Positions 187-33,823 of a stretch of DNA of 40,590 bases are shown one piece after another. The translations under genes and the position numbers were made by a program. This stretch comes from an uncultured Opitutia bacterium (lineage in GTDB: Bacteria > Verrucomicrobiota > Verrucomicrobiia > Opitutales > CAJWYM01), in the NCBI GenBank assembly GCA_913049555.1, contig CAJWYM010000031.1, positions 1-40,590 of the forward strand. Direction: 5' to 3'. Numbering within the stretch: position 1 is the first letter of the stretch; every line of letters starts with the position of its first letter. Under the pieces are notes generated by a model. The model was not told the origin of the DNA. It saw only the letters and a list, made by a program, of their open reading frames with translations, and did no database searches.

Positions 187-1728
187 TTATGGATTCAATA
201 GAGCACAGACATGCTTAGAGCTTGTGGGAGTGCTGCCATAGGTATTAATAACTGTATCCATAACCGCTTTGTACTCCAGTTCTATAAATGGATGATTGTG
301 AGATACAAAAACAACGGGTGTTTCTAAGTGCATCCAACCTTGCATAAGGTTTCTACAAGCCAATCCATTAAGACGAATCACATTAGTCCCGAAGTTGTAG
401 TTTGCAACGATGGAACAGACGATCAAATCAAAATTTTGAGATTCTGCCAAATCAAACAATCGATCCGGGCCTGGGTTTGAAAGTTCTTGAACATTGTTGT
501 AGTTTTTTTTGAGTTCTTGTGTCAGTTCGTAAATATGATTTTCATTCTTAATCATTTCATTTCGAATGATCACATGAAGAACTTTTTTGGCATTTTGTGT
601 CTTCTTGGGAATTAAATCATTGCGATCTCGGACAATCGAAATTGTTTTTTTTGTAACGTCGTCTGCCAATTTCTCATGTTCCGATTTAATGAAGGGAACC
701 GGCTCTTTGAAAAAGCCTCGTTCTAATAAGTCCTCTTTAAATGCTAATACCCTAGCGGTTCTATCAATAAGCGTTTCCTCTGATAAAATTCCTTTTTTAA
801 CACAAGCTTTCATTTTGTCATAAAATTTCGGCCCTATTTTGGGAAATAACAAAAGATCCCCTCCTGATTCAAAAAATGTAGCACAAGCATCATAGACATT
901 CATGTAACCGACAATGCCACCCATGCCCACTGCATCGGAAACAATAATTCCTTCAAAGCCTAATTCCCCTCTTAACAGATCTACCATCAGTCTTGGGGAT
1001 AGGGTTGCAGGAGGATAAACTCCATTTTTAGGATTTGCATGATCATAAGCGGGGAGTGAAATATGACCAGGCATAATTGCCATCACGCCGGCATCTATGA
1101 CCTCTTGGAAGACTCTACCAGAAAGCTTTCTCCAATCACTCATAGTTAGAGGGTTTTCAGGAGTGGTCAAGTGTTGATCATAGATCCCAAAGCCATCCCC
1201 TGGGAAATGCTTGGCAGTTGCTACCAAGCCATTTTGTTGTAAACCATGAATATAAGCCGTTGCCTTCTTAATAACCTCTTCAGGACTTCGACCTGAGCTT
1301 CTGGAACCCACTGCAGGACTGTCTGGGTTTTCTGCGATGTCAACACAGGGACCAAGAGTCCAATTAAATCCGACTTCCCTACCTTCTAAGGCTGCAACTT
1401 TTCCAACTTCGTATAAAGTTTCGGTAACATTTTGAGAACACAATCCAAAGAATTCAGGGAACTCACTTCCTCCCAAAATCATTTCGCCAGGACCATTTTC
1501 CATGTCTGTGGTAATCAAGCTATGGTTTCCAGCAAGCGCTTTAAAATCACGGATTCTTGTCTTTAATTTAGATTTTTTATCGGCATGAAAAAAAGCTGCT
1601 CCCGTTTGGATTTTTGGGGGTTGGGAACCATTGTAGTTCGGACAACATAGAACATCTATTTTCTGATTGAAATCCAAACTTTTTGCCTGTTCAAAATGAT
1701 TCGCGCTGATTTTAAATGTGTATTTCAT
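187..1728 (-). CDS. Glycoside hydrolase family 3 protein (NagZ-like N-terminal domain plus C-terminal alpha/beta domain)
   Basis: A 513-aa GH3 glycosidase. The catalytic barrel carries KHFPGDGFGIYDQH, which fits the NagZ-type signature KH(F/I)PG(H/D)GxxxxDxH, whose His serves with Asp as the acid/base pair in that subfamily. The nucleophile Asp is in IIVSDAVGMGG. The region from about residue 360 resembles the C-terminal alpha/beta sandwich of longer GH3 enzymes. No signal peptide is visible (start MKYTFKISANHF), so it probably acts in the cytoplasm on imported oligosaccharides or amino-sugar glycosides. The DQH form occurs in beta-N-acetylglucosaminidase-like GH3 groups, but the substrate cannot be fixed from sequence. 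It is divergent from the sulfatase at 2063 and lacks the palindromic operator found before the agar genes, so co-regulation is not supported. Confidence 0.88.
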   Translation of the reverse strand: MKYTFKISANHFEQAKSLDFNQKIDVLCCPNYNGSQPPKIQTGAAFFHADKKSKLKTRIRDFKALAGNHSLITTDMENGPGEMILGGSEFPEFFGLCSQNVTETLYEVGKVAALEGREVGFNWTLGPCVDIAENPDSPAVGSRSSGRSPEEVIKKATAYIHGLQQNGLVATAKHFPGDGFGIYDQHLTTPENPLTMSDWRKLSGRVFQEVIDAGVMAIMPGHISLPAYDHANPKNGVYPPATLSPRLMVDLLRGELGFEGIIVSDAVGMGGIVGYMNVYDACATFFESGGDLLLFPKIGPKFYDKMKACVKKGILSEETLIDRTARVLAFKEDLLERGFFKEPVPFIKSEHEKLADDVTKKTISIVRDRNDLIPKKTQNAKKVLHVIIRNEMIKNENHIYELTQELKKNYNNVQELSNPGPDRLFDLAESQNFDLIVCSIVANYNFGTNVIRLNGLACRNLMQGWMHLETPVVFVSHNHPFIELEYKAVMDTVINTYGSTPTSSKHVCALLNP

Positions 1729-2062
1729 AGAGGATAAATTAAATTTAAAAAGAATCTTTCTCCAGTGGTCATCAGGTCAAACATTTGACTTATTTAAAAC
1801 CAAAGCCTTGGATGGATATTTAGAATTCATATGTTAAGAATACAGTTTGTTTTTTTGTAGGTAGCTTTTTTAATATTTCTAATTACAAAACTTTTAAATA
1901 TCAACTTTGGACAGGCTAGGGTTCTTCAAATTAGAATGGAAAACTCTATCTTAAATTTTTATTGATGGAAATGCTTGATGACTCTTGAGAATTTTAAATT
2001 AAAATTTGATTTTTAACTCATTTATAATACTATAGTAATATTAATTATTGAGTATTAAAACT
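1729..2062. other. Divergent intergenic region between GH3 and sulfatase genes
   Basis: AT-rich divergent promoter region. It holds the operator-like site at 2024-2038 and, overlapping it, a perfect -10-like TATAAT at 2023-2028. An AT-only palindrome (AATTTTAA-A-TTAAAATT) lies at 1990-2006 and may be chance. No ORF or RNA gene seen. Confidence 0.6.
2024..2038. promoter_or_regulatory. Putative GntR-family operator before the EF-hand sulfatase
   Basis: The sequence ATAATACTATAGTAA matches the core TANTATNATANTA with one mismatch and lies 24 nt before the ATG at 2063. It overlaps a TATAAT (2023-2028), as expected for a repressor site. It is the weakest of the main sites, apart from the second site before the regulator gene. 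Confidence 0.5.
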
Positions 2063-3775
2063 ATGAAAAAAGCTCTATCAATCCTCTTTTTATTTTACTT
2101 TTTACAGGCGGTTTACGGGGCAGATTCCAAGCCGAATGTTCTGCTAATAGTTTGCGATGATTTGAATGATTACATCAGCGGGATGAACAGTCACCCACAA
2201 GCAAAAACACCCAATATTGAAAAATTAGCCTCTAGTGGTGTTATGTTTCGTCGAGCTTACAGCAACAACCCAGTTTGCGCCCCTTCAAGGTCTAGTTTTT
2301 TATCTGGTTTGTATCCACATACTTCTTACAATTTCTTCTGGTCAAAATGGTTTGAAAACCCAATTATGAAAAATTCCAACACCCTTATGGAGTATTTCAA
2401 AAAACAGGGCTATTCTGTCTTAGGCACTGGTAAATTGATGCACCATTTTAAAAAAGAGGTTTGGAGTGAATACAAAAACAAAACCGACTATGGTCCTTAT
2501 TGGTTCAATGGAAAAGATCGGACGGCGCATCCAAATGTTCCAAAACCTATGTATGATGTTGGGCCTATTGACGGTTCTTTTGCTTCTTTTGACGATCAAC
2601 CAAAACAAAAAGGTCCTAAGGATGGTTGGGTTCTAGGATGGGGGAGCCCAAAACTATATGATTATTCAGAGGGAAGTTCAGACTTAACCCCTGATGAAAG
2701 AAACGCTCAATGGGCAAGCCAGAAACTTCAAGAATTTGCCGACAATCAGCACGAGGATCCTTTTTTCCTTGCGGTAGGATTTGTAAGACCTCACACCCCT
2801 TTGCATGTGCGGCAAAAGTATTTTGATCTTTTTCCAGAGGATGAAGTTTTATTGCCCGTTTTAAAAGAGGGAGACAATGAGGATACTTTCTATCATAAAA
2901 TCTTAAAACGCAAGGGGCATGAAAACAAAGGGGGCACTTATTATCAGAATTTAAAAGAGGGTTATGAAGGGAAACACGAAGGATTAAAAAAATTTACCCG
3001 CGCTTATCTTGCTAGTGTTGCCGCTGTAGATGCCAATGTTGGTAAAGTTATCGATACGCTGGATAATACTCATTTGAAGGATAATACGATCGTTGTATTT
3101 ACAAGCGATCATGGTTGGAATATGGGTCAAAAAGAGCACTTATTTAAGGGCGCTCCTTGGGAGGAAAGTTGTCGTGTCCCCTTTGTTGTTAGAGCTCCTG
3201 GGGTAACAAAACAAGGGGGAATCGCTGAGCATCCAATTTCCTTGATTGATCTTTACCCAACATTGACAGACCTCTGTGGTATCTCTGGAGATACAAGAAA
3301 AAATGAAAAAGGCATTCAAATCGATGGAACCAGTGTTCGTCCATTCTTAGAGAATCCTAAATCCAGAGAATGGGAAGGGCCCAGAATCGCTGTTACAATG
3401 GTTTTCGACCAACAATTTGATGGCAACCCTCACAAGCAAAATTGGTCCCTTCGATCCGAAGATTTTCGTTATATTAAATACAGTGATGGGACAGAAGAGT
3501 TGTACGATCACCGTTCGGATTCGCATGAGTGGATGAATCTTGCAATGAACCCAGAATACGATTTGATCAAAAACCGTATCTATCAAGAACTTCTTTCCAT
3601 GCTTCCTACTCCAGAAGAAGTGACGCAAAGATCTGCTTCTATGAAAAAAGGAAAAGAGAAAAATGCAGAAAAATGGAAGAATGAATATTTTAAGAAAAAC
3701 CCTGCTTCTGATTTGAATAAAGACGGGAAACTTTCCTGGAGTGAGTTTCAAGAATATAAGAAGGGCAAGAAATAG
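2063..3775 (+). CDS. Secreted formylglycine-dependent sulfatase (iduronate-2-sulfatase-like) with C-terminal EF-hand
   Basis: A 570-aa S1-family sulfatase. A signal peptide (MKKALSILFLFYFLQAVYGA) precedes the sulfatase start PNVLLIVCDD, whose Asp residues bind calcium. The modification motif CAPSR is at residues 72-76, with Cys72 the residue converted to formylglycine. The arrangement resembles iduronate-2-sulfatase or choline-sulfatase-like subfamilies. The last 25 residues hold a canonical EF-hand loop (DLNKDGKLSWSE), presumed to bind calcium. I chose the ATG at 2063 rather than the in-frame TTG at 2048 because it starts exactly at a good signal peptide. An operator-like palindrome lies directly upstream, so it is probably induced with the agarase and anhydrogalactose genes. 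The sulfated substrate is unknown. No sulfatase-maturing enzyme is in the window. Confidence 0.9.
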   Translation: MKKALSILFLFYFLQAVYGADSKPNVLLIVCDDLNDYISGMNSHPQAKTPNIEKLASSGVMFRRAYSNNPVCAPSRSSFLSGLYPHTSYNFFWSKWFENPIMKNSNTLMEYFKKQGYSVLGTGKLMHHFKKEVWSEYKNKTDYGPYWFNGKDRTAHPNVPKPMYDVGPIDGSFASFDDQPKQKGPKDGWVLGWGSPKLYDYSEGSSDLTPDERNAQWASQKLQEFADNQHEDPFFLAVGFVRPHTPLHVRQKYFDLFPEDEVLLPVLKEGDNEDTFYHKILKRKGHENKGGTYYQNLKEGYEGKHEGLKKFTRAYLASVAAVDANVGKVIDTLDNTHLKDNTIVVFTSDHGWNMGQKEHLFKGAPWEESCRVPFVVRAPGVTKQGGIAEHPISLIDLYPTLTDLCGISGDTRKNEKGIQIDGTSVRPFLENPKSREWEGPRIAVTMVFDQQFDGNPHKQNWSLRSEDFRYIKYSDGTEELYDHRSDSHEWMNLAMNPEYDLIKNRIYQELLSMLPTPEEVTQRSASMKKGKEKNAEKWKNEYFKKNPASDLNKDGKLSWSEFQEYKKGKK

Positions 3776-7991: not shown

Positions 7992-9386
7992 TTAATTTTT
8001 TTTCCACCAATCATCTTTTCCAAGAGTTGGGAAATAACGTTCTTTCAATTGTGCATTCCAGTTTTCCCATTCCTGTAACAATTGTTTGCTTTTTTCCGGT
8101 TGAGAAGATTTCAAATTTTTCTTTTCGCTTATGTCCTCTTTAATGTTAAACAACTGATTTTCTGTATTTTTGTATTTTGTGTTTGCGACCAGCTTTACAT
8201 CTCCCGATCGGATGGCCATTCCATCATTTTCTCGTTTTCTCCAAAATAAAGTTTTGTGAGGAGCTTCAGATTTTTGGCCGGTAAGGTAAGGGATCAAATT
8301 GACTCCGTCCAATGGGCGATCTTTTGAGATCTGAACATTGGTTTGGGCTGTAATGGTGCTCATGATATCTAGGGAAATTACAGGATGTGGAAATTCCAAA
8401 GCAGAGGGAATAGTTCCTTTCCATTGCATTGCAAAGGGAACTCGGATACCGCCTTCAAATAAATCGCTTTTAAAACCTTTCAATGGATCATTGTTGGATG
8501 AATTTTTAGTAGTGCCCCCATTGTCCGATAAAAATACGACAATTGTATTTTCTTCGATTCCATTTCTTCTGAGAGTATCTAAAACTCTCCCAACTCCATC
8601 ATCTACTGAGCTTACCATAGCAGCATAAGTTCTTCTATTTTTATCTTCTATATTTGGAAATCTTGAAAGGTATTTCTCGGTTGCTTGTAAGGGAGCATGG
8701 GGAGCGTTGTAAGCCAAATATAGGAAAAAAGGATTGTCTTCTTGGACTTGTAGATCGATGTAACGGTTTGCAGCGTCGGTCAATTCATCTGTCAAGTAAT
8801 CATCAATTTCAATTCTTTGATGATTTTCCATGATTTTTGTTGAATACCATTGCCACTTTCTTGTGACTTGGCTCAAGTCTTGGATTGTAAGCATTTCAGG
8901 CATGTAGTTATGACCACCAGAAAGGAAGCCATAGAAATAATCAAAGCCTCTATTGAGTGGATGATTGCTTATGTGGCTACCCATGTGCCACTTTCCAATA
9001 ATTGCGCTTTTATACCCCACTTTTGTCAGAACTTCAGCCATATTTTCCTCTTCTTTGGGCAGTCCGGCAATTTCATTTTTTGGATCGATTGTAGGGTTCG
9101 TTGTATATCCAAATCGATCTTGATAGCGACCTGTCAATAGTCCGGCTCGACTGGGCCCGCAAACTGGAAAAGACACATATCCCTCTCTAAAAATAACTCC
9201 ATTGTTAGCCAAAGTATCTATGTTAGGAGTTGGTATATCCTCACAGCCATTGAACCCAACATCTTTATATCCTTGGTCATCGGTCAATATCACGATTAAG
9301 TTGGGAGTTTTTGCATGGATGGTTCCAAAGCATACACTAAATGTTAAGATTGATAGGGCGAGTTTATGGATTTTTTTAATGTTCAT
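7992..9386 (-). CDS. Secreted formylglycine-dependent sulfatase, S1_19-like (agar/carrageenan type)
   Basis: A 464-aa sulfatase. The signal peptide ends near IHA-KTP, and the mature protein opens with PNLIVILTDDQGY, whose Asp pair binds calcium. The maturation motif CGPSR is at residues 76-80, with Cys76 the formylglycine site, followed by LLTGRYQDRFGY. That stretch is typical of the S1_19-type group, which includes carrageenan and other red-algal galactan sulfatases. The subfamily call is by resemblance only. I place the start at 9386 because the longer frame would put 22 non-signal residues before the signal peptide and overlap the agarase gene. It lies 31 bp downstream of that gene on the same strand, so it probably shares its operon and operator. 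It likely removes sulfate from agar or porphyran-type chains so that glycosidases can act. Confidence 0.9.
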   Translation of the reverse strand: MNIKKIHKLALSILTFSVCFGTIHAKTPNLIVILTDDQGYKDVGFNGCEDIPTPNIDTLANNGVIFREGYVSFPVCGPSRAGLLTGRYQDRFGYTTNPTIDPKNEIAGLPKEEENMAEVLTKVGYKSAIIGKWHMGSHISNHPLNRGFDYFYGFLSGGHNYMPEMLTIQDLSQVTRKWQWYSTKIMENHQRIEIDDYLTDELTDAANRYIDLQVQEDNPFFLYLAYNAPHAPLQATEKYLSRFPNIEDKNRRTYAAMVSSVDDGVGRVLDTLRRNGIEENTIVVFLSDNGGTTKNSSNNDPLKGFKSDLFEGGIRVPFAMQWKGTIPSALEFPHPVISLDIMSTITAQTNVQISKDRPLDGVNLIPYLTGQKSEAPHKTLFWRKRENDGMAIRSGDVKLVANTKYKNTENQLFNIKEDISEKKNLKSSQPEKSKQLLQEWENWNAQLKERYFPTLGKDDWWKKN

Positions 9387-9417
9387 TAGATGCGTTGATT
9401 TTAAAGTTTTAAGGATT

Positions 9418-11475
9418 TTAATTGTATCTTTCTGAGTAGATTTTGTAGCCAATTTCGCGAACTTTTTGAATCAATTCTGGGTAAGGCGTGTCTGTGATGT
9501 CTAGCATTCCAATTTGAAAGTTTTCTCCATCTTGTCCACGTCCAGTAAAAGCTTGAGATCCATATTGAAACCAATGAGTTCCGAGCATCAGCGGATTCTT
9601 CAGGGCTCCTTTCACGAATTCGTAATAATGAATGGCTCGATCCTCTTGGTCAGAACTGTAATTCAATCCGGTATGAAACATTCCTCGATCGAGGGCCCCA
9701 AAGTGAAATTCGGTGGCCATCATGGGTTTTGAAAGGTTTGGAACCGGACCGGTAAAATCGGCAATGGATTTTCGATATAAGTTATAGCTAATTACGTCGC
9801 AATATTTTTGAGCGATTCTCATTGGAACTGGGTCAATATGATCATGGAATCGGCATCCGAGGTAGAGGTGATTAGGAAATACTTTTTTAAATTCGGAACG
9901 ACAGAGTTTAAAATATTTTTCACACATATTTTCATAAAATGCATCGACTTCTGTTTGAGTCTGTTCATAAGGAATCACTTTTTTCCTTTCGAGGAGACTA
10001 TTGAAGTTTGAAAATTGAGTATCCCATTTCTTGTTCAATTTTTGAATCGTTTGGAATTTTTCTTTGAGTTTGGATACAAAGAATTTCTTTGCGGGTTGGG
10101 ATGCTGAGGCTTTAAAGAGGATGGCATTGAATTTTTCGGCACTTTCCCAGTGAAGTTCATTGTTTATATAAGAACCCATATGGTAAGGGGAATAGGCGCT
10201 GGGTCGCGTGGCAGCATACTCAATAGCCTCACGCAAATTTGTTTCGTAGTCCGGGTGCCAGAGATCAGGGAACTTACTTCCTAGGTTCACTTTGTTAGGA
10301 TGGATGGCTAGAGTAAATGGAGTTCGCTCCAATTTCTGCGTTTCGTCATCGGACCAGTTTCCGATGGTATTCAATCCCCAACTTCTAAGCCTTTTGTGGT
10401 GCTTCTTTTGGATTATATTTTGCCAATTGTCACCGTACTTTTCTAATAAATTGGCTCTGGTGAAATTGTAGGTCTGCTGTTGGTTTTTTGGACTCTTCAG
10501 GAATTGAAATTTTGGATCTTCTGGTTCGGGAATACTTCTAAAATAATGCTCGCGCCCTTCTGTGATTGTATAGGCACCGTGAGTGTTGACACAGGTAACC
10601 CCATGAGACCAAAACAAACATCCACTAGGATCAATAAACCACCATTTGCCCTCTATAAGTTGAACTCTGAAATAACCAGTTGCTTTCTGTTTGGGACCGT
10701 TTTGCCATCCTCCCCATTTGTTCCAAGTGACAGGCTCTGGATATTTTTGCAGATCGATTTTCTCTGCTTGAATATTGGCGTTGAGATCTTGTTTGGTATA
10801 GACTTTACCGGGCCAATCACCGTGAATAAATTGTCCATATTTGTCAATAAAGGGAAATTCTAGTTTTTCGCTTCGATGGAACTTTTCATGAAACCTTATA
10901 GGCGTTATTCTTTCAATTCTGTAGGTGGTTCCTTTAGATGCGAGTGCCTCGTTCTTGATCGCTTTGTGAGAGAAAGTAATTTCAGAGATGTTTGAAGGAT
11001 CTACGTCTCTCCACCATTTGATTTCAGTATTGGGACCCGCTCGCAGTCCAATTAGATCTGGGTATTTTTCTTGGAACCAGTCATCATCAGCCAGAAAATA
11101 GACCAATAGATTTTTTCTTTCCCCAGGGTCTAGGTATCTTGAGTGGTATTGCCCCGGGTTGTATCCATTGATGACGCTGTCAGGGCTTTTAAGAAAAACC
11201 TGGGGAATGATTCTTTCTTTTGTTGGATTGAATAAAGTAATTTCAAGAGCTTGAAAATCTTTAAAATCCCAAGGTTTTAAAGATTTTAAGGTGAGGGTAG
11301 CGGATCCTATTCCAGGTTCCGTCTCCTCGTAGAGTAGGGTTTTGTCCTTAGTAATTTTGAGGGATGAGGAAATTGTAGAGATTGTTAGGTTCTCTGAGGT
11401 CAATTCAATACTTTCTGACATCGTTATTAATGGAAAGATCAGAGATAGAGTTAGGAGGATTAAGAATGATTTCAT
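9418..11475 (-). CDS. GH50-type beta-agarase, secreted
   Basis: A 685-aa enzyme with a signal peptide (MKSFLILLTLSLIFPLITMS). Residues about 20-195 form a beta-rich, CBM-like domain, followed by a (beta/alpha)8 catalytic domain. Catalytic candidates are Glu440 (acid/base, in INNELHWES) and Glu589 (nucleophile, in MATEFHFGAL). The NE and TEFHFG sites about 150 residues apart, preceded by WWFIDPSGCLFWSHGVTCV, match clan GH-A enzymes of GH50 type. GH50 enzymes cut agarose, often exo-wise, releasing neoagarobiose. I chose the ATG at 11475 (eighth residue of the longest frame) because it begins the signal peptide. It is first in an operon with the sulfatase, with an operator palindrome 26 nt upstream. 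Specificity towards agarose versus porphyran is not proven. Confidence 0.78.
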   Translation of the reverse strand: MKSFLILLTLSLIFPLITMSESIELTSENLTISTISSSLKITKDKTLLYEETEPGIGSATLTLKSLKPWDFKDFQALEITLFNPTKERIIPQVFLKSPDSVINGYNPGQYHSRYLDPGERKNLLVYFLADDDWFQEKYPDLIGLRAGPNTEIKWWRDVDPSNISEITFSHKAIKNEALASKGTTYRIERITPIRFHEKFHRSEKLEFPFIDKYGQFIHGDWPGKVYTKQDLNANIQAEKIDLQKYPEPVTWNKWGGWQNGPKQKATGYFRVQLIEGKWWFIDPSGCLFWSHGVTCVNTHGAYTITEGREHYFRSIPEPEDPKFQFLKSPKNQQQTYNFTRANLLEKYGDNWQNIIQKKHHKRLRSWGLNTIGNWSDDETQKLERTPFTLAIHPNKVNLGSKFPDLWHPDYETNLREAIEYAATRPSAYSPYHMGSYINNELHWESAEKFNAILFKASASQPAKKFFVSKLKEKFQTIQKLNKKWDTQFSNFNSLLERKKVIPYEQTQTEVDAFYENMCEKYFKLCRSEFKKVFPNHLYLGCRFHDHIDPVPMRIAQKYCDVISYNLYRKSIADFTGPVPNLSKPMMATEFHFGALDRGMFHTGLNYSSDQEDRAIHYYEFVKGALKNPLMLGTHWFQYGSQAFTGRGQDGENFQIGMLDITDTPYPELIQKVREIGYKIYSERYN

Positions 11476-11824
11476 AAGTTTAAAATGAAGATACAATTAT
11501 CATACTATAATATTAATTGAGATTTTTTCAAATGGATTTTTAATTTAATCTTTGAGAATGCATTGAGGAATGTTTACATCTCAAATGGCCGAGTTTTTTT
11601 AAAAAAAGACCCCGGAGTCATTAGGATCTCTTTCTCCATACCTTAGTCACCAAAGTTAAAAAGCCTTGAATGGATTCCATCGCTTCCCCGTGATCTACCC
11701 TAATGAATCTCGGGGAATTGTAGGAGTAAGTAAGCAAAATAATTTTATTTAACAATGGAAAATGGGTTTAGAGGAGAATGATGGGGGTGATGAGAATTAT
11801 TTAAATAAGGATCCGCATCTATGG
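11476..11824. other. 349-bp gap between the MFS and GH50 genes
   Basis: Holds the operator at 11502-11516. Further up, a T7A7 tract (11594-11607) adjoins GACCCCGGAGTC (11608-11619). Read on the minus strand, this is a small imperfect hairpin followed by seven T residues, a weak candidate terminator for the MFS gene. A wider inverted repeat (TTCCCCG 11684-11690, CGGGGAA 11711-11717) has a 20-nt loop. No gene seen. Confidence 0.45.
11502..11516. promoter_or_regulatory. Putative GntR-family operator before the GH50-sulfatase operon
   Basis: ATACTATAATATTAA contains a perfect TANTATNATANTA core (11503-11515), 26 nt before the GH50 start codon on the minus strand. Spacing to the start codon is like that of the other sites. 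Confidence 0.6.
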
Positions 11825-13300
11825 CTATACTTTTCCGCGTCGAATTTCTAACTCATTTCTGATTTCAGTCATCTTCTCTTTTGTGAGTGGGTAGATTTGG
11901 ATCATAATGTAGGTGAGAATAAAGCAAGCTGCTGGTAAAATAATAAACAGCAGGCGCATTGCTAGAAATGTGCTTTCAGTTTGGGTCCCCCCTAAGTCTT
12001 TATCAAAATTTGTCATGGTTAATAAGATTCCTGATAGGGCTATAGATAAGGATGCTCCTGCTTTCATAACCCATCCGCTGACAGCTCCAAAAATTCCTTC
12101 TCTTCGATTCCCATTTTTATGCTCATCATAATCTGTATAATCCGCGAGCATGGACATGAAAATGGCCCAAAGACCTGTGTATGCAGGAGCAAAGAAAATA
12201 GGAATAATAAGCGTTAAATATGGATTTTCGGGAGTGAATAGAAACCATTTCGCAGCAGAGCCGGAAAGGCCAAAAAGAACGCAAACCGTTAAGATTTTCT
12301 TCTTTTCAATATTCATCCAGTAGCGTTTCAATGCCCAAAGAAAAAAGAAACCTAAAAATTGAGTGATGTTCCCACCGATGGCAGCATATTTATAACCGGC
12401 TTTTAAGTCTCCTCCCCATACATAAAAAAGATTTACATAGAGTCCTAGCGCACCTAATAAAGCAGTGCTGCACAACAGTCCCAGACCTAAAGAGTGCAAG
12501 GTTATAAAGCAACGGTCTTTACTGAATTCTTTAAAGCTTTTGAAAAGATTTACTTTTTCTTGCTTTTTGGCGACTTTGTAATAGCGCTCTTGAGTGTATT
12601 TGTAAACGGAGAATCCAGCAATCAGGATGAGCACACTACAAGCCCCTGTTACTGCACGAATTCCGGTGACAGGATCTCCAAAAAAATCCATCTGAGAGAG
12701 TGGTAAGATCCAGACGACTCCAATCTGAAAAAACTTATTCATGTAAGCGGAGTAAATACTTACCGCTGTTCTCTCTTTGTAGTCAGCAGTCAGTTCCGTT
12801 CCTAATGCTCTAAATGGAACTGAAAAAATAGTATAAGTGGTAAAGAAAAAGATGCAGGCACAAACAAAATAAATTGTTTTTGCACTGTCTGCCCAGCTAG
12901 GAGAGGCAAACCACAAGAGTGGAAAGGAGAATGCCATAAGTAAGGCTCCTATTAGAATAAAGGGTCTTCTTCTCCCATTTTTTCCTTTCCAATTGTCTGA
13001 AATAGTTCCCATTATAGGATCTGAAACTGCGTCCCAGAATCTCATAGCTCCCATAACAATCCCTATAATTGCTGGGCTCAGCCCGAGGGAAATGTTATAC
13101 ACTGGAGTAGCCAGTGAATTAATGCCCGCTTCACCAAATTGATTGCAGAAAGAACCCAATCCATAAGCAGCTTTTTCTTTTACAGGCAGAGTTTCCCCTT
13201 CTGCAAGAGAGTCTTTAGATTTTGCAGGAGCGTCTTTTGTAGGAACATTTCCCATTTGTTGGCTGTTGTGGTTTGGTTGTATATCTAGTGCATCACTCAT
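11825..13300 (-). CDS. MFS sugar:cation symporter, GPH (melibiose-carrier) family
   Basis: A 491-aa membrane protein with about 12 hydrophobic helices. After a polar N-terminus of about 40 residues comes VKEKAAYGLGSFCNQFG, then MRFWDAVSDPIMGTISDNWKGKNGRRRPFILIG, which carries the GPH hallmark of cation-site Asp residues (WDAVSDP) and the DxxxxxxGRRRP loop. The family imports mono- and oligosaccharides with Na+ or H+. Position next to the agarase operon and a perfect copy of the shared operator suggest it imports agar-derived sugars such as anhydrogalactose or neoagarobiose. An alternative start at Met16 (13255) is possible: the operator lies only 2 bp from the ATG used here, leaving no room for a ribosome binding site. 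Confidence 0.88.
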   Translation of the reverse strand: MSDALDIQPNHNSQQMGNVPTKDAPAKSKDSLAEGETLPVKEKAAYGLGSFCNQFGEAGINSLATPVYNISLGLSPAIIGIVMGAMRFWDAVSDPIMGTISDNWKGKNGRRRPFILIGALLMAFSFPLLWFASPSWADSAKTIYFVCACIFFFTTYTIFSVPFRALGTELTADYKERTAVSIYSAYMNKFFQIGVVWILPLSQMDFFGDPVTGIRAVTGACSVLILIAGFSVYKYTQERYYKVAKKQEKVNLFKSFKEFSKDRCFITLHSLGLGLLCSTALLGALGLYVNLFYVWGGDLKAGYKYAAIGGNITQFLGFFFLWALKRYWMNIEKKKILTVCVLFGLSGSAAKWFLFTPENPYLTLIIPIFFAPAYTGLWAIFMSMLADYTDYDEHKNGNRREGIFGAVSGWVMKAGASLSIALSGILLTMTNFDKDLGGTQTESTFLAMRLLFIILPAACFILTYIMIQIYPLTKEKMTEIRNELEIRRGKV

Positions 13301-13805
13301 ATGTACTATTATATTACTTTATTGAAAAATTAAAAGTAATTTTTTATTTTTTGAGTCATTAAAACACATTTTAGTTTTTCTAGTATCCATTCAAAAGATT
13401 GAATCCTAGGAACTTATAAGCTTCTAGAGCCTATTCAATTGGAAATTGTTTTTTAAAGACTCAAATTGTTAGCAACGAATTTCCTTTGAATTTTTTGACC
13501 AACAGTGGGTTTTAGTGTGTATTAAAATACCTTTGAGTCCTTTCTAAGTCTTAACAGCCTAATTTTTCAAAATTAATTTTAGTGTCGCTCCTTTTCGAGT
13601 GGATTTTTAACTGGTGCCAAAACTTTTTCAGAATCATTGTTTTACTGATTTGATTATGGCTTACAGTCAATGATTGATTAGTTTCATATCTGTAGTAATT
13701 TTTCTTATTGTTATTCAAAAGCCTCCCTTATAATTATTTGGATTTTGTTGGGCTTGACCTCAATGAGTTTGTAAAAGTAATTTTTTTTATTAACATGATA
13801 CAATT
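13301..13805. other. 505-bp divergent intergenic region
   Basis: Separates the MFS gene from the adenylate kinase-like gene, transcribed away from each other. Besides the operator at 13303-13317 it is AT-rich sequence that should hold the promoter for the gene at 13806. No ORF, tRNA or further palindrome seen. Confidence 0.5.
13303..13317. promoter_or_regulatory. Putative GntR-family operator before the MFS transporter (perfect copy)
   Basis: GTACTATTATATTAC matches GTANTATNATANTAC at every defined position, including the outer G and C, and is the best copy in the window. It ends 2 bp from the annotated MFS start codon. The minus strand contains TATAAT within it. Confidence 0.65.
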
Positions 13806-24616: not shown

Positions 24617-25171
24617 TTATTTTAACTCCAATTCAATGACCCAGTTGGTTTGATCTTTTCTTGTAGATAAATTAGAACCTACTGCAAAGTGGATCATATC
24701 TCCTTTGTTGACTTTCACCGAGATCTTAGGAGTTGTGACACTGTCAATATCTGTGGTCAGGTAAGCAGGATCCTCTCCTTTTGGCCAGATTTGGTCTTCG
24801 TTTTTTAAGATTCGAAGAGTCACTCCATCGCCATTGTCATCATGATGGATTACCGGCAAACTTTCATAGATGGTGATATTTCCTCTTTTAGGAGATTTAA
24901 AACTCCTGACAGATTCAGCCATGGGTCCTGGATGTTGATTGGCTGCTAGGCAGTTGCCGTATTTGAAATTGTCGTAAGCATCCATCCACCATCCTCTTCC
25001 TTGTTCATCATAGTGGTCGTATTGCTCATAAACTCCGTCAAGGTCTATAGAGCCATAATACCAGTTCTCATTGCCCTGTTCTCCAATAAAAGCATATTCT
25101 GAGTTGGACTCAAAAGCATGGAGGGAATGGAAGTAGCAAGCTAAAAACGCGAGTAAGAGTGTAATTTTCAT
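24617..25171 (-). CDS. Secreted 184-aa beta-rich protein of unknown function, candidate polysaccharide-binding protein
   Basis: It has a signal peptide (MKITLLLAFLACYFHSLHA) and a compact beta-rich mature domain of about 165 residues. Recognisable pieces are GEQGNENWYYGS, a Trp/Tyr-rich stretch (GRGWWMDAYDNF), SVRSFKSPKRGNITI, DDNGDGVTLRILKNEDQIWP, and VKVNKGDMIHFAVGSN near the end. This succession (QGxxxWYYG, then VRxxxSPxxGxITI, GDGVxxRIxxN, VxxGDxIxF) resembles jelly-roll, carbohydrate-binding-like modules attached to polysaccharide lyases, hydrolases and surface proteins of marine bacteria, but here the module is alone. An excellent copy of the shared operator lies 24 nt upstream, so it is likely expressed with the agar genes. 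Function is inferred from context only. Confidence 0.75.
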   Translation of the reverse strand: MKITLLLAFLACYFHSLHAFESNSEYAFIGEQGNENWYYGSIDLDGVYEQYDHYDEQGRGWWMDAYDNFKYGNCLAANQHPGPMAESVRSFKSPKRGNITIYESLPVIHHDDNGDGVTLRILKNEDQIWPKGEDPAYLTTDIDSVTTPKISVKVNKGDMIHFAVGSNLSTRKDQTNWVIELELK

Positions 25172-25195: not shown

Positions 25196-25210
25196 GTAAT
25201 ATTATAATAG
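25196..25210. promoter_or_regulatory. Putative GntR-family operator before the secreted 184-aa protein
   Basis: GTAATATTATAATAG matches GTANTATNATANTAC at all defined positions except the final C. It lies 24 nt before the start codon of the minus-strand gene. On the minus strand it includes TATAAT, so it overlaps a possible -10 box. Confidence 0.62.
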
Positions 25211-25285
25211 TAATACTTGTTAATTAAAAAAATTCAACTCTATTTCTCAATTAATAGGGGTAGCAATATTAAAAAATTCTCAGAA

Positions 25286-28441: not shown

Positions 28442-28456
28442 ATAATATTATAATAG
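28442..28456. promoter_or_regulatory. Putative autoregulatory operator 1 of the GntR gene
   Basis: ATAATATTATAATAG contains a perfect TANTATNATANTA core (28443-28455), itself a near-exact palindrome. It lies 79 nt before the GntR start codon. TATAAT is embedded in it. Confidence 0.6.
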
Positions 28457-28535: not shown

Positions 28536-29231
28536 ATGGGATTAAATTTATGCGGACAGTTAGTTCATGAACTTGGAAAAAAAATCATTTCTGGGGAAAT
28601 TGCAACGGACAGTTGTATTCCTAGTGAAGAAGAATTAAGAAGTAAATATGATGTGAGTAGAACGGTTACTCGAGAGGCAATTCGTGCCTTAATTGCTAAA
28701 GGTCTTGTAGAATCAAAACCAAAGAAGGGAACCAGTGTTTGCCCGACCGAGAAGTGGAATTTTTTGGATATTGATGTTTTAAATTGGAGTGTTGTCACTG
28801 ATCAATCGGGAGGTTTTTTCCAACATTTGCATCAATTGCGAAGTGCTATTGAGCCAGAGGCTGCTTCAATTGTGGCTAAGAATGGACCTCAGGAATTACT
28901 TGATTTTGTTGTTGAGCAAGCCAATAAGATGGAAAGTTTAGCGGACTCCCCGGAGGAGTATTCAAAAGCAGATCTGGATTTTCATAAAGCAATTTTAATG
29001 GGTGCAAAGAATCCATTGTTCAATCCTATTATCAATGTGATCCATTTTGCTCAAAGTTATACTTTGAAAATGACAAACAATAAGCAGGAGGATAATTTAG
29101 AATCGATTCCTATTCATAAGGCCATTGCAAATTCAATTGCAGCAAGACAAGTGGATCTCTCGAAGGCTTCTATGATTGCGCATTTTGATCATTTGGCAAC
29201 TCGCCTTGATAAATACGGAGTTCTTAATTAA
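28536..29231 (+). CDS. GntR-family transcriptional regulator, FadR/FCD subfamily
   Basis: A 231-aa regulator. The N-terminal winged helix-turn-helix (about 1-75) reads LGKKIISGEIATDSCIPSEEELRSKYDVSRTVTREAIRALIAKGLVESKPKKGTSV, the classic GntR pattern. The C-terminal FCD domain has the metal and ligand site of the subfamily: Asp146 and His150 (KADLDFHKA), His194 (IPIHKA) and His216 (IAHFDHL). FCD regulators usually bind sugar acids or other carboxylates and release DNA when induced. It lies directly before the anhydrogalactose operon on the same strand, and the same palindrome stands before that operon, its own gene and the agar genes. It is therefore the best candidate to control them. The inducer could be anhydrogalactonate, KDGal or its phosphate. 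Confidence 0.93.
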   Translation: MGLNLCGQLVHELGKKIISGEIATDSCIPSEEELRSKYDVSRTVTREAIRALIAKGLVESKPKKGTSVCPTEKWNFLDIDVLNWSVVTDQSGGFFQHLHQLRSAIEPEAASIVAKNGPQELLDFVVEQANKMESLADSPEEYSKADLDFHKAILMGAKNPLFNPIINVIHFAQSYTLKMTNNKQEDNLESIPIHKAIANSIAARQVDLSKASMIAHFDHLATRLDKYGVLN

Positions 29232-29432: not shown

Positions 29433-29472
29433 TTGACAAATTCTAATTTTTGTATTAGTAATATTATATTAT
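29433..29472 (+). promoter_or_regulatory. Promoter and operator of the anhydrogalactose operon
   Basis: A perfect -35 hexamer TTGACA (29433-29438) is followed at -10 distance by TAGTAATAT. The operator GTAATATTATATTAT (29458-29472) overlaps this -10 region and matches GTANTATNATANTAC at all defined positions except the last. Its right end is 21 nt before the ATG at 29494. The overlap predicts repression by blocking RNA polymerase. Confidence 0.6.
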
Positions 29473-29493: not shown

Positions 29494-30645
29494 ATGATTG
29501 AATCGATTAAAACCCACAGACTTCAGCACAAGTTAGAAGAATCATTTGGATTTTCTCAATGGCACTACAGTGTTCGGAATAATTTGATAGTCGAAATTGT
29601 AGATAGCTCAGGAGCAATTGGTTGGGGAGAATGCTACGGCCCTGCTGAAGTCACTCAATGCGCAATCCAATCTTTTTATGCTCCCCTCATGATTGGAAAA
29701 GATGGAACCCAAAATGAAGCTATTTGGCATAATAATTGGCGAGCAGGTTTAGATTTTTCTAGAAAAGGAATTATGATGGGTGCTATGAGTGGTTTAGATA
29801 TGGCTCTTTTTGATTTAAAAGGGAAATTATTGAATCTTTCAGCCTCCGAATTGATGGGAGGACGGGTTCGGGAGGAACTCTCTTGTTATGCTACAGGTAT
29901 GTATTTTCGAAAAATTCCTGAGGCAGATTTGTTGGATTTAATTCTAGAGGAAGCGGAGGGTTACGTTGAAAGTGGATACAAAGCTCTCAAAATAAAAGTG
30001 GGAAAAAATATGGATTTCGATCAACAACTGATCGAGGCAATGAGAAAGCGTTTCCCAAAAATTGCATTGATGGCAGATTCAAACCATGCTTATGATTTGT
30101 CTGAAGCTACAACCATTGGAAAATTGTTGGATGCCAACAATTATCTTTGGTTTGAAGAGCCCCTGTCTCCCAATTACATGAAGCAGTTCAGACAATTATC
30201 AGATCGGCTTCAAATTCCATTAGCAACAGGTGAATGCGAGCAAACAAGATGGGGTTTTCAAGATCTTTTGTCTGAGGGTGGGGTTCAATTCGCTCAACCA
30301 GACCTCGCTTATTGTGGGGGTCCTACAGAGTCTTTAAAAATTAGAGCGATTGCTTCCTCTTTAGGAGTTAATGTGATCCCTCATGCTTGGGGAACGATGT
30401 TAAACATGGCGACGGCTGCTCATTTTCTAGCAACTACTTATGTCGAGCCTGGGCGGGCAGAGGTTCGAGAGCCTCTTTTGGAGTCAGATTTAACTCCGAA
30501 TCCCATGCGGGATGAAATGTTTTCCACTGCTTTAGAAATTGAGAATGGTCAGCTAAAGGTTCCTTCTCTTCCAGGCTTAGGGGTAGAACCAGATCGCAAG
30601 GCAATGCAAACTTTCACAATTCAAACAACTGAGGCAAAAAAATGA
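29494..30645 (+). CDS. Enolase-superfamily sugar-acid cycloisomerase, probably 3,6-anhydrogalactonate cycloisomerase
   Basis: A 383-aa protein of the mandelate racemase group. The catalytic Lys-x-Lys is K166-I-K168 (ALKIKVG), metal ligands are Asp195 (MADSNHAY), Glu221 (WFEEPLSP) and Glu247 (TGECE), and the Asp270-His297 dyad (QPDLAYCGG, PHAWGTM) completes the site. The N-terminal GWGECYGP loop and the HAWGTMLNMATAAHFLA end resemble anhydrogalactonate and galactarolactone cycloisomerases more than dehydratases. Expected reaction: 3,6-anhydrogalactonate to 2-keto-3-deoxygalactonate. Neighbours support this: a dehydrogenase to make the acid, then kinase and aldolase for the keto-deoxy product. 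It overlaps the next gene by 4 bp (ATGA). A galactonate or fuconate dehydratase remains possible. Confidence 0.8.
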   Translation: MIESIKTHRLQHKLEESFGFSQWHYSVRNNLIVEIVDSSGAIGWGECYGPAEVTQCAIQSFYAPLMIGKDGTQNEAIWHNNWRAGLDFSRKGIMMGAMSGLDMALFDLKGKLLNLSASELMGGRVREELSCYATGMYFRKIPEADLLDLILEEAEGYVESGYKALKIKVGKNMDFDQQLIEAMRKRFPKIALMADSNHAYDLSEATTIGKLLDANNYLWFEEPLSPNYMKQFRQLSDRLQIPLATGECEQTRWGFQDLLSEGGVQFAQPDLAYCGGPTESLKIRAIASSLGVNVIPHAWGTMLNMATAAHFLATTYVEPGRAEVREPLLESDLTPNPMRDEMFSTALEIENGQLKVPSLPGLGVEPDRKAMQTFTIQTTEAKK

Positions 30646-32042
30646 GTTCTAAAAAATATGCATCCTTAATCAACGGGAATATCGTAGATGGAGATCAATT
30701 CTTTGACGTAATCAATCCTTCTTCAAATCAGGTGTTGGCGACTGTTACAGAGGTAGATTCCCATGGAATCGAAGCGGCTCTTTCCTCGGCTAAAGAAGGT
30801 TTCAAGGTTTGGTCCAAAGAAAAGCCTTCTGTTCGTAAAGAGAAGATCTTAAAATATGTTGAAATCTTGGAGCGTGAAAAAGAAGGTTTGATTTCTCTCT
30901 TAATTAGCGAGACTGGAAAACCAAGGGATAATGCGGAGTATGATTTTGGAATGTTAATTACATGTCTTAAATTCTTTGTTGAAGAATATGAACGCATGGA
31001 TCAGCCAGTGATTCAAGATCCTAGTGGTCGTTTTTTAAATTACATACAAAGACAGCCTCTAGGTGTCGTTGTAGGCTTGTTGGCTTGGAATTTTCCATTA
31101 TTGAATGTCGGATACAAGCTGGGTCCTGTTCTAGCAGCCGGCTGCTCTGCCATAATAAAACCCTCTGAATTCACTCCATTGGCTTCTTTAGAGGTCGGCT
31201 ATTTAGCGAAAGAAGCAGGGATCCCAGATGGCGTTGTAAATATGATCGCTTGCAAAGATAAAGAAGTCTTCAAGCCTGCACTGGAGAGTGAAATCCCAGC
31301 AATGGTAACTATGATAGGCTCTACTCGTGGAGGACTTTCTGTCATGCAGAGCTCCTGTTCAAGTATCAAACAATTTTCTGTAGAATTAGGTGGAAACGCG
31401 CCTGTTCTGGTTTACCCTGATGCGGATCTAGCAAAAGCAGCCGAAAAAATAGTAGGTTTAAAATTTGCAAATACTGGGCAAGTTTGTGTATCCCCGAATC
31501 GTTGTTATGTGCATGATTCGATTCTTGAGGAATTTACCGAAAAAGTCTTAGAAATTACTTCATCGGTTGAAATGGGTCCGATGATTTCCTCTCAAGAGCG
31601 AGACAATGTGTTAGCTATGATAGATCTAGCTGTGAAGGAGGGAGCTACCATAGCAGCTGGAGGTTCTGCAAAAGAAGGACCTGGGTTTTTCATGCAACCC
31701 ACCGTCTTGACTGGCATGACTCATGGACAAACGATGTGTCGTAAAGAAATTTTTGGTCCTGTTTTGCCGATCTATTCTTTCAGCGATGACGAGGATGAAA
31801 TAGCCTTGGCCAATGATGTCAGTGAAGGATTGGCTGCCTATGTATTTACTTCTAATTTATCAAAAGCATTGAAGGCGGCACAAGAAATTGAAGCGGGTAG
31901 TGTTTGTATCAATGAACCTCATTATTCTGTTGAATTGCCTCATGGTGGACTGAAACAGAGTGGGGTTGGTAAGGATTGTTCCAGATACAGTTTAGAAGAA
32001 TACTTAACCGTGAAACGAGTTTCTGTTCTAATAGAGTCATAA
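30642..32042 (+). CDS. NAD(P)-dependent aldehyde dehydrogenase, probably 3,6-anhydrogalactose dehydrogenase
   Basis: A 466-aa ALDH-superfamily enzyme. Key residues: Asn in LLAWNFPLL, Lys in IIKPSEFTP, the catalytic Glu in VELGGNAPV (near residue 248), the nucleophilic Cys in NTGQVCVSPNR (near 281), and EIFGPVLPIYSF. It is most like succinate-semialdehyde-type ALDHs. In this operon the logical job is oxidation of 3,6-anhydrogalactose to 3,6-anhydrogalactonate, the substrate of the upstream cycloisomerase, with which it overlaps by 4 bp. Between EEFTEKVLEITS and MGPMIS it lacks about 10 residues that most relatives have (the KVGDPLD-type loop), which explains its short length. Confidence 0.88.
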   Translation: MSSKKYASLINGNIVDGDQFFDVINPSSNQVLATVTEVDSHGIEAALSSAKEGFKVWSKEKPSVRKEKILKYVEILEREKEGLISLLISETGKPRDNAEYDFGMLITCLKFFVEEYERMDQPVIQDPSGRFLNYIQRQPLGVVVGLLAWNFPLLNVGYKLGPVLAAGCSAIIKPSEFTPLASLEVGYLAKEAGIPDGVVNMIACKDKEVFKPALESEIPAMVTMIGSTRGGLSVMQSSCSSIKQFSVELGGNAPVLVYPDADLAKAAEKIVGLKFANTGQVCVSPNRCYVHDSILEEFTEKVLEITSSVEMGPMISSQERDNVLAMIDLAVKEGATIAAGGSAKEGPGFFMQPTVLTGMTHGQTMCRKEIFGPVLPIYSFSDDEDEIALANDVSEGLAAYVFTSNLSKALKAAQEIEAGSVCINEPHYSVELPHGGLKQSGVGKDCSRYSLEEYLTVKRVSVLIES

Positions 32043-32056
32043 ATAAAGGATTTAAA

Positions 32057-32704
32057 ATGAGTTTATTTTCTAAAGAATTATTAGAAAAGTTAGGGAAAAA
32101 CCCAATAGTCGCTGGGTTCTCTGTTGAAAATGTAAAAGATGCAGTGCCGATTGCGGAGGCATTATTAGAAGGGGGGATCCATACGATCGAACTTACCTTG
32201 AGAACAGAAGCTGGATTGAAGGGTTTGGAGGAAATTTGCAAACACGTTCCAGAAATTACTGTTGGAGTTGGTACAATTCTAACGGTAGATCAATTACAAA
32301 CAGTCTCTGATCTAGGTGCAGATTTCGGAGTTGCTCCGGGTCTGAATCCTAAAGTCATTGAAGCTTCTATAAATGCAAATTTTCCTTTTGCTCCCGGTAT
32401 TATGACTCCTTCTGAATTGGAACAGGCGATTTCTATGGGATGCCGATTTGTAAAATTCTTTCCTGCTGAAAGCTGTGGAGGAATACCCTACCTGAAAAGC
32501 ATTTCTACACCCTACAACCACCTTGGAATTCAATATTTTCCCTTGGGAGGTGTTCATGCTGGGAATCTAAATAATTATCTAGCCCTGGATGCCGTCTTAA
32601 CCGTTGGTGGATCTTGGATTGTTCAGAATGAACAAGTTCGAGAAGGTAATTTTAAAGAGATCTCCAGTCGAGCTGCTGAAGCAATACAGGCAATCAAACA
32701 ATAA
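32057..32704 (+). CDS. 2-keto-3-deoxy-6-phosphogluconate/galactonate aldolase
   Basis: A 215-aa class I aldolase of the KDPG family (Eda/DgoA type). The Schiff-base lysine is Lys133 in CRFVKFFPAE; TLRTEAGL carries the catalytic Glu and phosphate-region Arg, and GVGTIL, FAPGIMTPSE and PLGGV complete the barrel. It cleaves the 6-phospho-2-keto-3-deoxy acid to pyruvate and glyceraldehyde 3-phosphate. I chose the ATG at 32057 (not the frame's start inside the preceding gene) because AAAGGA at 32045-32050 is a good ribosome binding site and the protein then starts like Eda (MSLFSKELLEKLGKNPIVAG). Third gene of the operon, 14 bp after the ALDH stop. Confidence 0.93.
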   Translation: MSLFSKELLEKLGKNPIVAGFSVENVKDAVPIAEALLEGGIHTIELTLRTEAGLKGLEEICKHVPEITVGVGTILTVDQLQTVSDLGADFGVAPGLNPKVIEASINANFPFAPGIMTPSELEQAISMGCRFVKFFPAESCGGIPYLKSISTPYNHLGIQYFPLGGVHAGNLNNYLALDAVLTVGGSWIVQNEQVREGNFKEISSRAAEAIQAIKQ

Positions 32705-32731
32705 TTTAAGAGATTAATAAAAGGAATAAAT

Positions 32732-33823
32732 ATGAATACAATTGTCACATTTGGAGAGATTATGGGAAGAATGGCTACGCCAGGAAATCTGCGCCTTCGT
32801 CAAACTAGAGAATTTGAAGTTACTTACGCAGGTGCCGAAGCAAGTGTAGCTGCATCTGTTTGTAACTTTGGTGGCAATGCACGCTACGTGACTGCATTGC
32901 CGAAACATTCTATTGCCGAATCTGCAGTGGACTCTGTCCGGGCAGTTGGGATTGATACGAGTTTTATTATTCGAACCGATGAAGGAAGATTAGGGATGTA
33001 TTATCTGGAGGCTGGAGCCAATCAGCGTCCCAGCAATGTTATTTACGATCGTGCGGATTCCTCTGTATCTTTACTTCACGCAGATCAATACAATTGGAAA
33101 ATGATTTTTGAAAGTGCCAGCTGGTTTCATATCAGCGGAATCACACCAGCTTTATCTAAAAATGCAGCGGAGGTGAGTTTGTATGCAGTTCAACAAGCCC
33201 AAGCAAACGGTGTGAAGGTTTCTTGTGATTTAAATTTTAGAAAGAAGCTTTGGCAGTGGGGAGAAAAGGGCGAGGATGCAAAAGAGCTTGCTCGCAAAAC
33301 AATGGCAGAAATTCTAAAATATGTTAATGTTGTCATCGCCAATGAAGAAGATTGTGCGGATGTTTGCAATATTCATGCAGGTGACACGGATGTTGAATCT
33401 GGTCACCTAGATACCAGCCGTTATCCTGATGTGGCGAAACAAGTTGCAGCTCTTTATCCGAGCGTTGAGAAGGTTGCAATTACACTCCGGGAAAGCTTGT
33501 CGGCGAGTCATAACAATTGGGGTGCTATGCTCTATGAGGTAGCGGATGAAAAAGCATATTTTGCACCATTGAACGAGGATGGAACTTATCAATCTTACGA
33601 AATCAAAAATATCGTAGATCGAGTTGGGGGAGGCGACTCTTTCGCAGGAGGTCTGATTTTTGCCTTAACGACGGATCAATTAAAAGAATCAAAAGTAGCG
33701 GTTCAATATGCAGTGGCTGCCTCTTGTTTAAAACATTCCATTAAAGGAGATTTCAATTTTTCAACAAGAGCAGAGGTGGAGTCTTTGATGGGGGGTTCTG
33801 CATCTGGTCGGGTGGTTCGCTAG
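32732..33823 (+). CDS. 2-keto-3-deoxygluconate/galactonate kinase (PfkB family)
   Basis: A 363-aa ribokinase-fold sugar kinase. The N-terminus (TFGEIMGRMATPG) and the substrate segment YYLEAGANQRPSNVIYDR are typical of KDG kinases. The anion hole and catalytic Asp are in DRVGGGDSFAGGL (near residues 295-307). It phosphorylates the 2-keto-3-deoxy acid at O6 for the aldolase just upstream. AAAGGA at 32719-32724 provides a ribosome binding site. Last gene of the operon. Whether it prefers the gluco or galacto epimer cannot be seen. Confidence 0.92.
   Translation: MNTIVTFGEIMGRMATPGNLRLRQTREFEVTYAGAEASVAASVCNFGGNARYVTALPKHSIAESAVDSVRAVGIDTSFIIRTDEGRLGMYYLEAGANQRPSNVIYDRADSSVSLLHADQYNWKMIFESASWFHISGITPALSKNAAEVSLYAVQQAQANGVKVSCDLNFRKKLWQWGEKGEDAKELARKTMAEILKYVNVVIANEEDCADVCNIHAGDTDVESGHLDTSRYPDVAKQVAALYPSVEKVAITLRESLSASHNNWGAMLYEVADEKAYFAPLNEDGTYQSYEIKNIVDRVGGGDSFAGGLIFALTTDQLKESKVAVQYAVAASCLKHSIKGDFNFSTRAEVESLMGGSASGRVVR

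Follow-up and report, generated by a model that had tools for sequence, protein, structure and literature searches.

The DNA analysed here (the window, 40,590 nt) belongs to contig CAJWYM010000031.1 of assembly GCA_913049555.1, from an uncultured Opitutia bacterium (Opitutales; CAJWYM01; the host) with a genome of 3.1 Mb that is 95% complete. It carries a sugar-catabolic operon that very probably serves 3,6-anhydro-D-galactose of carrageenans, which are gels of red seaweeds. Five intact, tightly packed genes, each with a Pfam assignment, lie on the plus strand: a GntR/FCD transcriptional regulator (28536..29231; Pfam GntR 1.9e-16, FCD 3.1e-19), a DauB-type 3,6-anhydro-D-galactonate cycloisomerase of the enolase superfamily (29494..30645), a DauA-type 3,6-anhydro-D-galactose dehydrogenase of the aldehyde dehydrogenases (30642..32042), a KDPG/KHG (Eda-like) aldolase in the putative DauD role (32057..32704, from an ATG at 32057; Pfam Aldolase 2.8e-57) and a PfkB-family kinase in the putative DauC role (32732..33823). 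The dehydrogenase gene (30642) overlaps the end of the cycloisomerase gene (30645) by 4 bases.

A first-pass annotation of this DNA had described the four enzymes together, without the oxidoreductases that convert one epimer to the other in the agar pathway. Gene calls and Pfam bear out both points. No keto-deoxy-galactonate 5-dehydrogenase or 5-reductase is encoded in the operon and none was identified among the other genes of the window, a statement that holds for these and not genome-wide; a crude, unvalidated scan for short-chain dehydrogenase/reductase motifs in the window and 14 related loci likewise found neither.

Dehydrogenase and cycloisomerase

In the agar route, 3,6-anhydro-L-galactose is oxidised and opened to 2-keto-3-deoxy-L-galactonate, from which a 5-dehydrogenase and a 5-reductase give 2-keto-3-deoxy-D-gluconate (KDG) (PMC5943477, PMC10163077). 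The carrageenan route, DauA-DauB-DauC-DauD, takes the D sugar directly through 2-keto-3-deoxy-D-galactonate and its 6-phosphate to pyruvate and glyceraldehyde-3-phosphate (PMC5698469). The best PDB match of the dehydrogenase was Pseudoalteromonas DauA (6PNU, 353 bits; PMC6923384), with the next match at 293 bits and the Vibrio L-anhydrogalactose dehydrogenase 6J75 at 283 bits, 70 below DauA. For the cycloisomerase the best match was Zobellia DauB (5OLC, 306 bits), followed by the galactarolactone cycloisomerase (GCI) AtGCI (4GGB, 266 bits); the L-specific 5XD7 reached 119 bits. Each L-specific enzyme is therefore behind a D-specific one, and by sequence comparison the two proteins fit DauA and DauB, respectively.

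These scores bear on the shortened agar pathway that the first-pass annotation had favoured, with 3,6-anhydro-L-galactose as the substrate. Such a pathway would require that the kinase and aldolase accept the L-galacto acid, or that the oxidoreductases lie elsewhere in the genome. The kinase and aldolase families are those of the agar route (PMC10163077), the absence of the oxidoreductases covers the operon and window and not the whole genome, and a GH50 glycoside hydrolase, of a family otherwise of beta-agarases, stands under the same operator. However, both the dehydrogenase and the cycloisomerase resemble D-specific enzymes far more than they do 6J75 and 5XD7, to which the enzymes of a true agar cluster are ~69% identical (PMC10163077); the sulfatase in the operon of the GH50 is of carrageenan type; and Pontiella sulfatireligans F21, which carries the orthologous operon, does not grow on agar. 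With homology and gene context opposed to it, we regard a shortened agar pathway as very improbable.

The cycloisomerase keeps the catalytic K166/K168, the metal ligands D195, E221 and E247, the acid H297 and also the shared Asp and Trp. Overall identity (40% to Zobellia DauB, 38% to AtGCI) does not separate the two families. More is learned from diagnostic columns, of which 16 are fixed in four DauBs (from two phyla) and fixed otherwise in three GCIs. The window enzyme agrees with the DauBs at eight of these (I5, S21, Q22, Y25, L146, A199, E249 and H310), agrees with the GCIs at two and matches neither set at the other six. S21-Q22-x-x-Y25 makes up the mobile lid loop; residues A199 and E249 sit where barrel strands end, beside metal ligands. 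In a first tree the window clade grouped with Zobellia and Flammeovirga DauB (support 96/95). After addition of Gammaproteobacterial (Pseudoalteromonas) and Alphaproteobacterial (Sulfitobacter) DauBs the deep forks were no longer resolved, and the tree is therefore not used as proof.

The near-equal similarity to AtGCI and the unresolved deep branches are what favour an unrelated acid-sugar pathway. There the enolase would act as a GCI or as a dehydratase of galactonate type, and the aldehyde dehydrogenase would take another aldehyde. Against it, kdgD and genes for an amidohydrolase and TRAP transporters are found in two GCI-type operons, neither of which has an aldehyde dehydrogenase, and the lid-loop and strand-end residues of the window enzyme are DauB-like. 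Furthermore, the enzyme does not reach the NCBI cut-off of any dehydratase model. Clustering with galactonate dehydratases, which the first-pass annotation had named as grounds for giving up an anhydrogalactose operon, was not seen, E. coli DgoD falling far outside in the tree. On residues, operon content and model cut-offs we reject the cycloisomerase as a galactonate dehydratase or GCI, and the acid-sugar pathway is the least probable of the alternatives considered here.

Kinase and aldolase

The best PDB match of the kinase is the KDG kinase 2AFB (273 bits). The aldolase, of family PF01081, is 40% identical to E. coli Eda, 29-35% to DauD (Flammeovirga DauD 35%) and 24% to E. coli DgoA. In Zobellia and Pseudoalteromonas the kinase belongs to the DgoK family (PMC5698469, PMC6923384). 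DgoK (PF05035) is absent from the host genome, with the PfkB kinase in its place, and among 12 genomes with the cycloisomerase DgoK occurs only in three Desulfofustis-type genomes, the orthologous PfkB kinase in exactly the other nine. The simplest reading is that the PfkB kinase is a non-orthologous replacement of DgoK and would act on 2-keto-3-deoxygalactonate.

Some carrageenan degraders are without dauC, and a non-phosphorylative route has been proposed for them (PMC5698469); dauC is therefore not strictly defining for the pathway. The complementarity of PfkB and DgoK offers a possible answer to these dauC-less degraders that needs no non-phosphorylative route.

In one Desulfofustis-type locus, from a sulfate-reducing lineage (L016:10001-12214), the cycloisomerase is followed by DgoK ~230 bases downstream, with no adjoining dehydrogenase. 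The proximity of DgoK points to 2-keto-3-deoxygalactonate as the product of that cycloisomerase.

Operator and regulon

GntR operators are usually near-palindromic. The search for sites was seeded solely with the site at the cycloisomerase promoter, the 13-mer TAATATTATATTA (29459..29471), which precedes the catabolic operon. The window has four other intergenic sites that differ from it at no more than one position, where 0.15 would be expected; of 400 dinucleotide shuffles, none reached four such sites. At up to two mismatches the window has eight matches, all eight intergenic and immediately 5' of a gene. A copy with one mismatch, TAATATTATAATA, lies before the regulator gene (28443..28455), as would be expected of an autoregulation site. 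The regulator is 33-36% identical to FadR/GntR regulators beside dau genes on Sulfitobacter SK012 and P. carrageenovora plasmids, and is probably a repressor that binds this palindrome.

Two further sites with one mismatch were found before the GH50-sulfatase operon (11503..11515, TACTATAATATTA) and before a GPH-family sugar:cation symporter gene (13304..13316, TACTATTATATTA), 4 bases upstream of the latter. The symporter (11825..13300, minus strand) matches Pfam MFS_2 (1.4e-64) and scores 193 bits with TIGR00792, under the model cut-off of 231. The mismatch statistics and intergenic placement make real the operator shared by the GH50 and cycloisomerase operons that the first-pass annotation had proposed.

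A site between a GH3 and an S1 sulfatase gene (2025..2037, TAATACTATAGTA) has two mismatches to the cycloisomerase site and one to the consensus. The secreted S1 sulfatase (2048..3775, plus strand, probable start 2063; Pfam Sulfatase), which we count as a regulon member, shares 43-46% identity with sulfatases encoded 3' of the orthologous operon at the related loci L017 and L018. On the other side of the operator, the GH3 hydrolase gene (187-1728, minus strand) is without an evident signal peptide; it could be a further regulon member acting on imported oligosaccharides. Two overlapping operators (25197..25212, one and two mismatches) lie ~26 bases upstream of a gene for a small secreted protein of 184 residues with a signal-peptide-like start (24617..25171, minus strand), a possible regulon member.

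In the rest of the genome, two further operator sites precede sulfatase genes on contig C21. One operator-associated protein there (L039:15876-18758, 960 residues) has an S1 sulfatase domain at residues 451-954, preceded by ~430 residues without a Pfam match. Exact operator matches also occur before a gene for an 814-residue secreted repeat protein with a PATR motif (L042:7598, C9:55598) and near two genes for short secreted proteins (L043:6148, C23:24148); these may be either regulon members or chance matches.

The GH50 hydrolase and its sulfatase

The secreted GH50 (9418..11496, minus strand, probable start 11475) scores 263 bits with the exo-beta-agarase 4BQ2 and keeps the acid/base E447 and the nucleophile E596; a single-sequence AlphaFold model (mean pLDDT, the predicted local confidence score, 35) was too poor to be used. 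Its gene is overlapped by that of an S1_19-type carrageenan sulfatase (7992..9452, minus strand), and the two are very probably co-transcribed. In the PDB the sulfatase matches best 6BIA at 352 bits, then scores 346 with the iota-carrageenan sulfatase 6B0J/6B0K, 339 with the S1-19 enzyme 9HH3 and 332 with the exo-4S-kappa-carrageenan sulfatase 6PRM, and is 40% identical to a sulfatase of the P. carrageenovora carrageenan cluster. With the operator at 11503, a carrageenan sulfatase is thus under the same control as the catabolic operon.

To our knowledge, family GH50 has so far been known for beta-agarases. Of 388 Verrucomicrobiota genomes, 97 have GH50-like genes, mostly in other and very varied settings, so that a GH50 by itself says little in favour of agar. 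The combination of a GH50 with a GPH-type symporter and an S1_19-type sulfatase recurs in two of 20 neighbourhoods (L098, L104). A Catenovulum plasmid with GH50s showed no clear L-pathway operon in the stretch examined. At L018 a contiguous row encodes symporter, cycloisomerase, dehydrogenase, aldolase, kinase, sulfatase, GH2 and GH50, the last 30% identical to that of the window. Since the sulfatase in its operon best matches carrageenan sulfatases, the window GH50, judged by sequence, is more probably an enzyme of a carrageenan regulon than proof of an agar pathway. The first-pass argument from the GH50 to agar therefore stands as to the family and the shared operator, but its inference is weakened by the S1_19 partner and the wide spread of GH50.

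Relatives and their context

We found 14 orthologues of the cycloisomerase (57-73% identity) in Kiritimatiellales, Pelagicoccus, other Verrucomicrobia, the planctomycete Adhaeretor and Desulfofustis-type bacteria. The dehydrogenase (62-65%), aldolase (54-59%) and PfkB kinase (58-73%) keep their order in most non-Desulfofustis loci, the aldolase or kinase lying elsewhere in some. In Kiritimatiellales a RhaT-family symporter gene is directly upstream of the cycloisomerase, and Flammeovirga has the row RhaT-DauB-DauA-DgoK-aldolase with two GH127 genes nearby. In Zobellia, the gene of a DMT sugar/H+ symporter adjoins dauB (PMC5698469). A more distant row of aldehyde dehydrogenase, cycloisomerase, aldolase and kinase in a genome of the same order (G010, locus L002; 44% cycloisomerase identity, same lid-loop motif) is probably a second version of the module.

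DagA, the alpha-1,3-(3,6-anhydro)-D-galactosidase of the core carrageenan utilisation system (PMC5698469), belongs to family GH127. Among marine Verrucomicrobiota, GH127 genes lie near the orthologous operon of Pontiella F21, Pontiellaceae B12227 and two Pelagicoccus; the planctomycete Adhaeretor has one there as well. The cycloisomerases of these relatives are 67-73% identical to that of the window. The DagA-type GH127s of the relatives are 71-78% identical to the Pontiella F21 enzyme, itself 61-64% identical to Flammeovirga GH127s; a sixth relative has a more distant GH127 (~40%). S1_19-like sulfatases stand beside the operon in most relatives, and the P. carrageenovora carrageenan cluster has the same four-enzyme set beside FadR/GntR regulators. 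Moreover, both kappa- and iota-carrageenan support growth of Pontiella sulfatireligans F21 (L015), whereas agar does not (PMC7356697).

The DagA-type GH127 gene of Adhaeretor mobilis (L009, G422:C1:2165048-2167009) contains one in-frame TAG, which suggests a pseudogene or a sequence error. A beta-helix protein near the Pontiella operon was considered as a GH82 carrageenase and rejected, its closest match being lacto-N-biosidase.

Glycoside hydrolases of the host

The sole GH127 of the host, in an ABC-transporter locus, is 31-33% identical to DagA and lacks the operator; it is too distant to be DagA. As a DagA-type GH127 was not found in the host genome, the host is not filed as having a complete core carrageenan system. 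The GH129 model (PF11308) matched nothing, but it matched nothing in the controls either, and so carries no weight. The genome has one GH16 domain, of laminarinase type, in an unusual pairing with a sulfatase: the 842-residue protein (L044:8752-11280, C46:11752-14280, minus strand) joins an N-terminal S1 sulfatase to a C-terminal GH16, with 6T2N as best PDB match, then laminarinases. The host also has a GH2 that is 41% identical to the GH2 of L018.

In the host and L018, two lineages with no DagA-type GH127 in their genomes, the D-sugar operon occurs together with a GH50. Tentatively, and against the odds in our estimate, a branch of GH50 may have joined carrageenan breakdown in such DagA-less bacteria: under the same control as the operon, the GH50 would cut desulfated carrageenan oligosaccharides and, together with GH2 or GH3 enzymes, take the place of the GH16/GH127 route. 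If this GH50 did act on carrageenan, the label 'beta-agarase' would be mistaken in many Verrucomicrobiota annotations, GH50-like genes being present in a quarter of the sampled genomes.

Alternatively, the regulon might serve a carrageenan-agar hybrid, a galactan that contains D- as well as L-anhydrogalactose. The GH50 would then cut its agarose stretches, and the operon would catabolise the D sugar alone. This would reconcile an agarase-family GH50 with D-type enzymes and an S1_19 sulfatase under one operator. However, no L-anhydrogalactose genes were seen with the regulon (GH117 and GH86 were not searched for), and the single GH16 domain of the genome is laminarinase-like. A hybrid galactan is unlikely in our view, if clearly less so than the agar and acid-sugar pathways, and it does not contradict a D-sugar assignment for the operon itself.

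Proposed pathway

We infer that the operon is a catabolic module for the 3,6-anhydro-D-galactose of carrageenans, with a GntR regulon that supplies the sugar, and put the probability of this at about 0.88. The dehydrogenase would oxidise 3,6-anhydro-D-galactose to 3,6-anhydro-D-galactonate, and the cycloisomerase would open the ring of the latter to 2-keto-3-deoxy-D-galactonate. The PfkB kinase would then perform the 2-keto-3-deoxygalactonate kinase step and the Eda-like aldolase that of the 2-keto-3-deoxy-6-phospho-galactonate aldolase. A 5-dehydrogenase/5-reductase pair would not be needed, because the D sugar yields the D-galacto acid directly. The GntR protein is predicted to repress the operon and its own gene through one AT-rich palindrome, and the same palindrome would control the sugar-supply genes, namely those of the GH50 and S1_19 sulfatase, further sulfatases and the GPH symporter.

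Several points weigh against this assignment. Phylogeny alone, with the cycloisomerase only 40% identical to DauB and 38% to AtGCI and the deep forks lost on addition of the proteobacterial DauBs, leaves the substrate unsettled. The kinase and aldolase are not of the DgoK and DgoA families, and agarolytic bacteria use a PfkB KDG kinase and an Eda-like aldolase after epimer conversion (PMC10163077). No DagA-type GH127 was found in the host, at 95% completeness. The phenotype of relatives is one step removed from the host organism, and another Pontiella species, P. agarivorans, can grow on agar as well as on carrageenan (PMC10880615). The option of D-anhydrogalactose from carrageenan, also raised in the first-pass annotation, nevertheless has strong support from the closeness to DauA and DauB, the S1_19 sulfatase, the GH127 context and the Pontiella phenotype. 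The apparent gap in the pathway is then explained by the enantiomer, and the host moves from the probable agar degraders to the probable carrageenan degraders.

Comparison with known systems

By its DauA- and DauB-like sequences the locus appears to work like the Dau pathway, short of a complete core carrageenan system. It shares with Zobellia galactanivorans and Pseudoalteromonas (PMC5698469, PMC6923384) the Dau-type dehydrogenase and cycloisomerase, a kinase and a KDPG-family aldolase, the lack of the oxidoreductase pair and a co-regulated carrageenan sulfatase and sugar transporter. It differs from them in having PfkB for DgoK, an Eda-like for a DgoA-like aldolase, a GH50 in the regulon and no DagA-type GH127 found in the host genome. 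Control would be by GntR rather than by the AraC-type CgrA, although the P. carrageenovora set is also flanked by GntR-type genes.

With the agar pathway of Vibrio EJY3 and P. atlantica (PMC5943477, PMC10163077) the host has in common the first two chemical steps in order, the PfkB KDG kinase and KDPG aldolase families and the presence of GH50. In contrast to that pathway, the host operon is without the 5-dehydrogenase and 5-reductase, and neither its dehydrogenase nor its cycloisomerase belongs to the L-specific families. AtGCI-type operons share the enolase-superfamily branch and a GntR regulator, but carry kdgD, an amidohydrolase and a TRAP transporter and are without aldehyde dehydrogenase, kinase and KDPG aldolase.

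The operons of Pontiella sulfatireligans F21 and other members of the Planctomycetes-Verrucomicrobia-Chlamydiae group (L007-L019) have four orthologous enzymes in the same order where complete. Unlike the host, relatives of the Pontiella F21 type have a DagA GH127, GH16 and a sugar-porter MFS protein. L017 and L018 are nearer to the host in having no GH127; both encode a GH2 and a Sulf2-like sulfatase, and L018 a GH50 in addition. The locus is thus best described as a variant of a known pathway, in which the apparent replacement of the kinase and the GH50 in the regulon are the new points.

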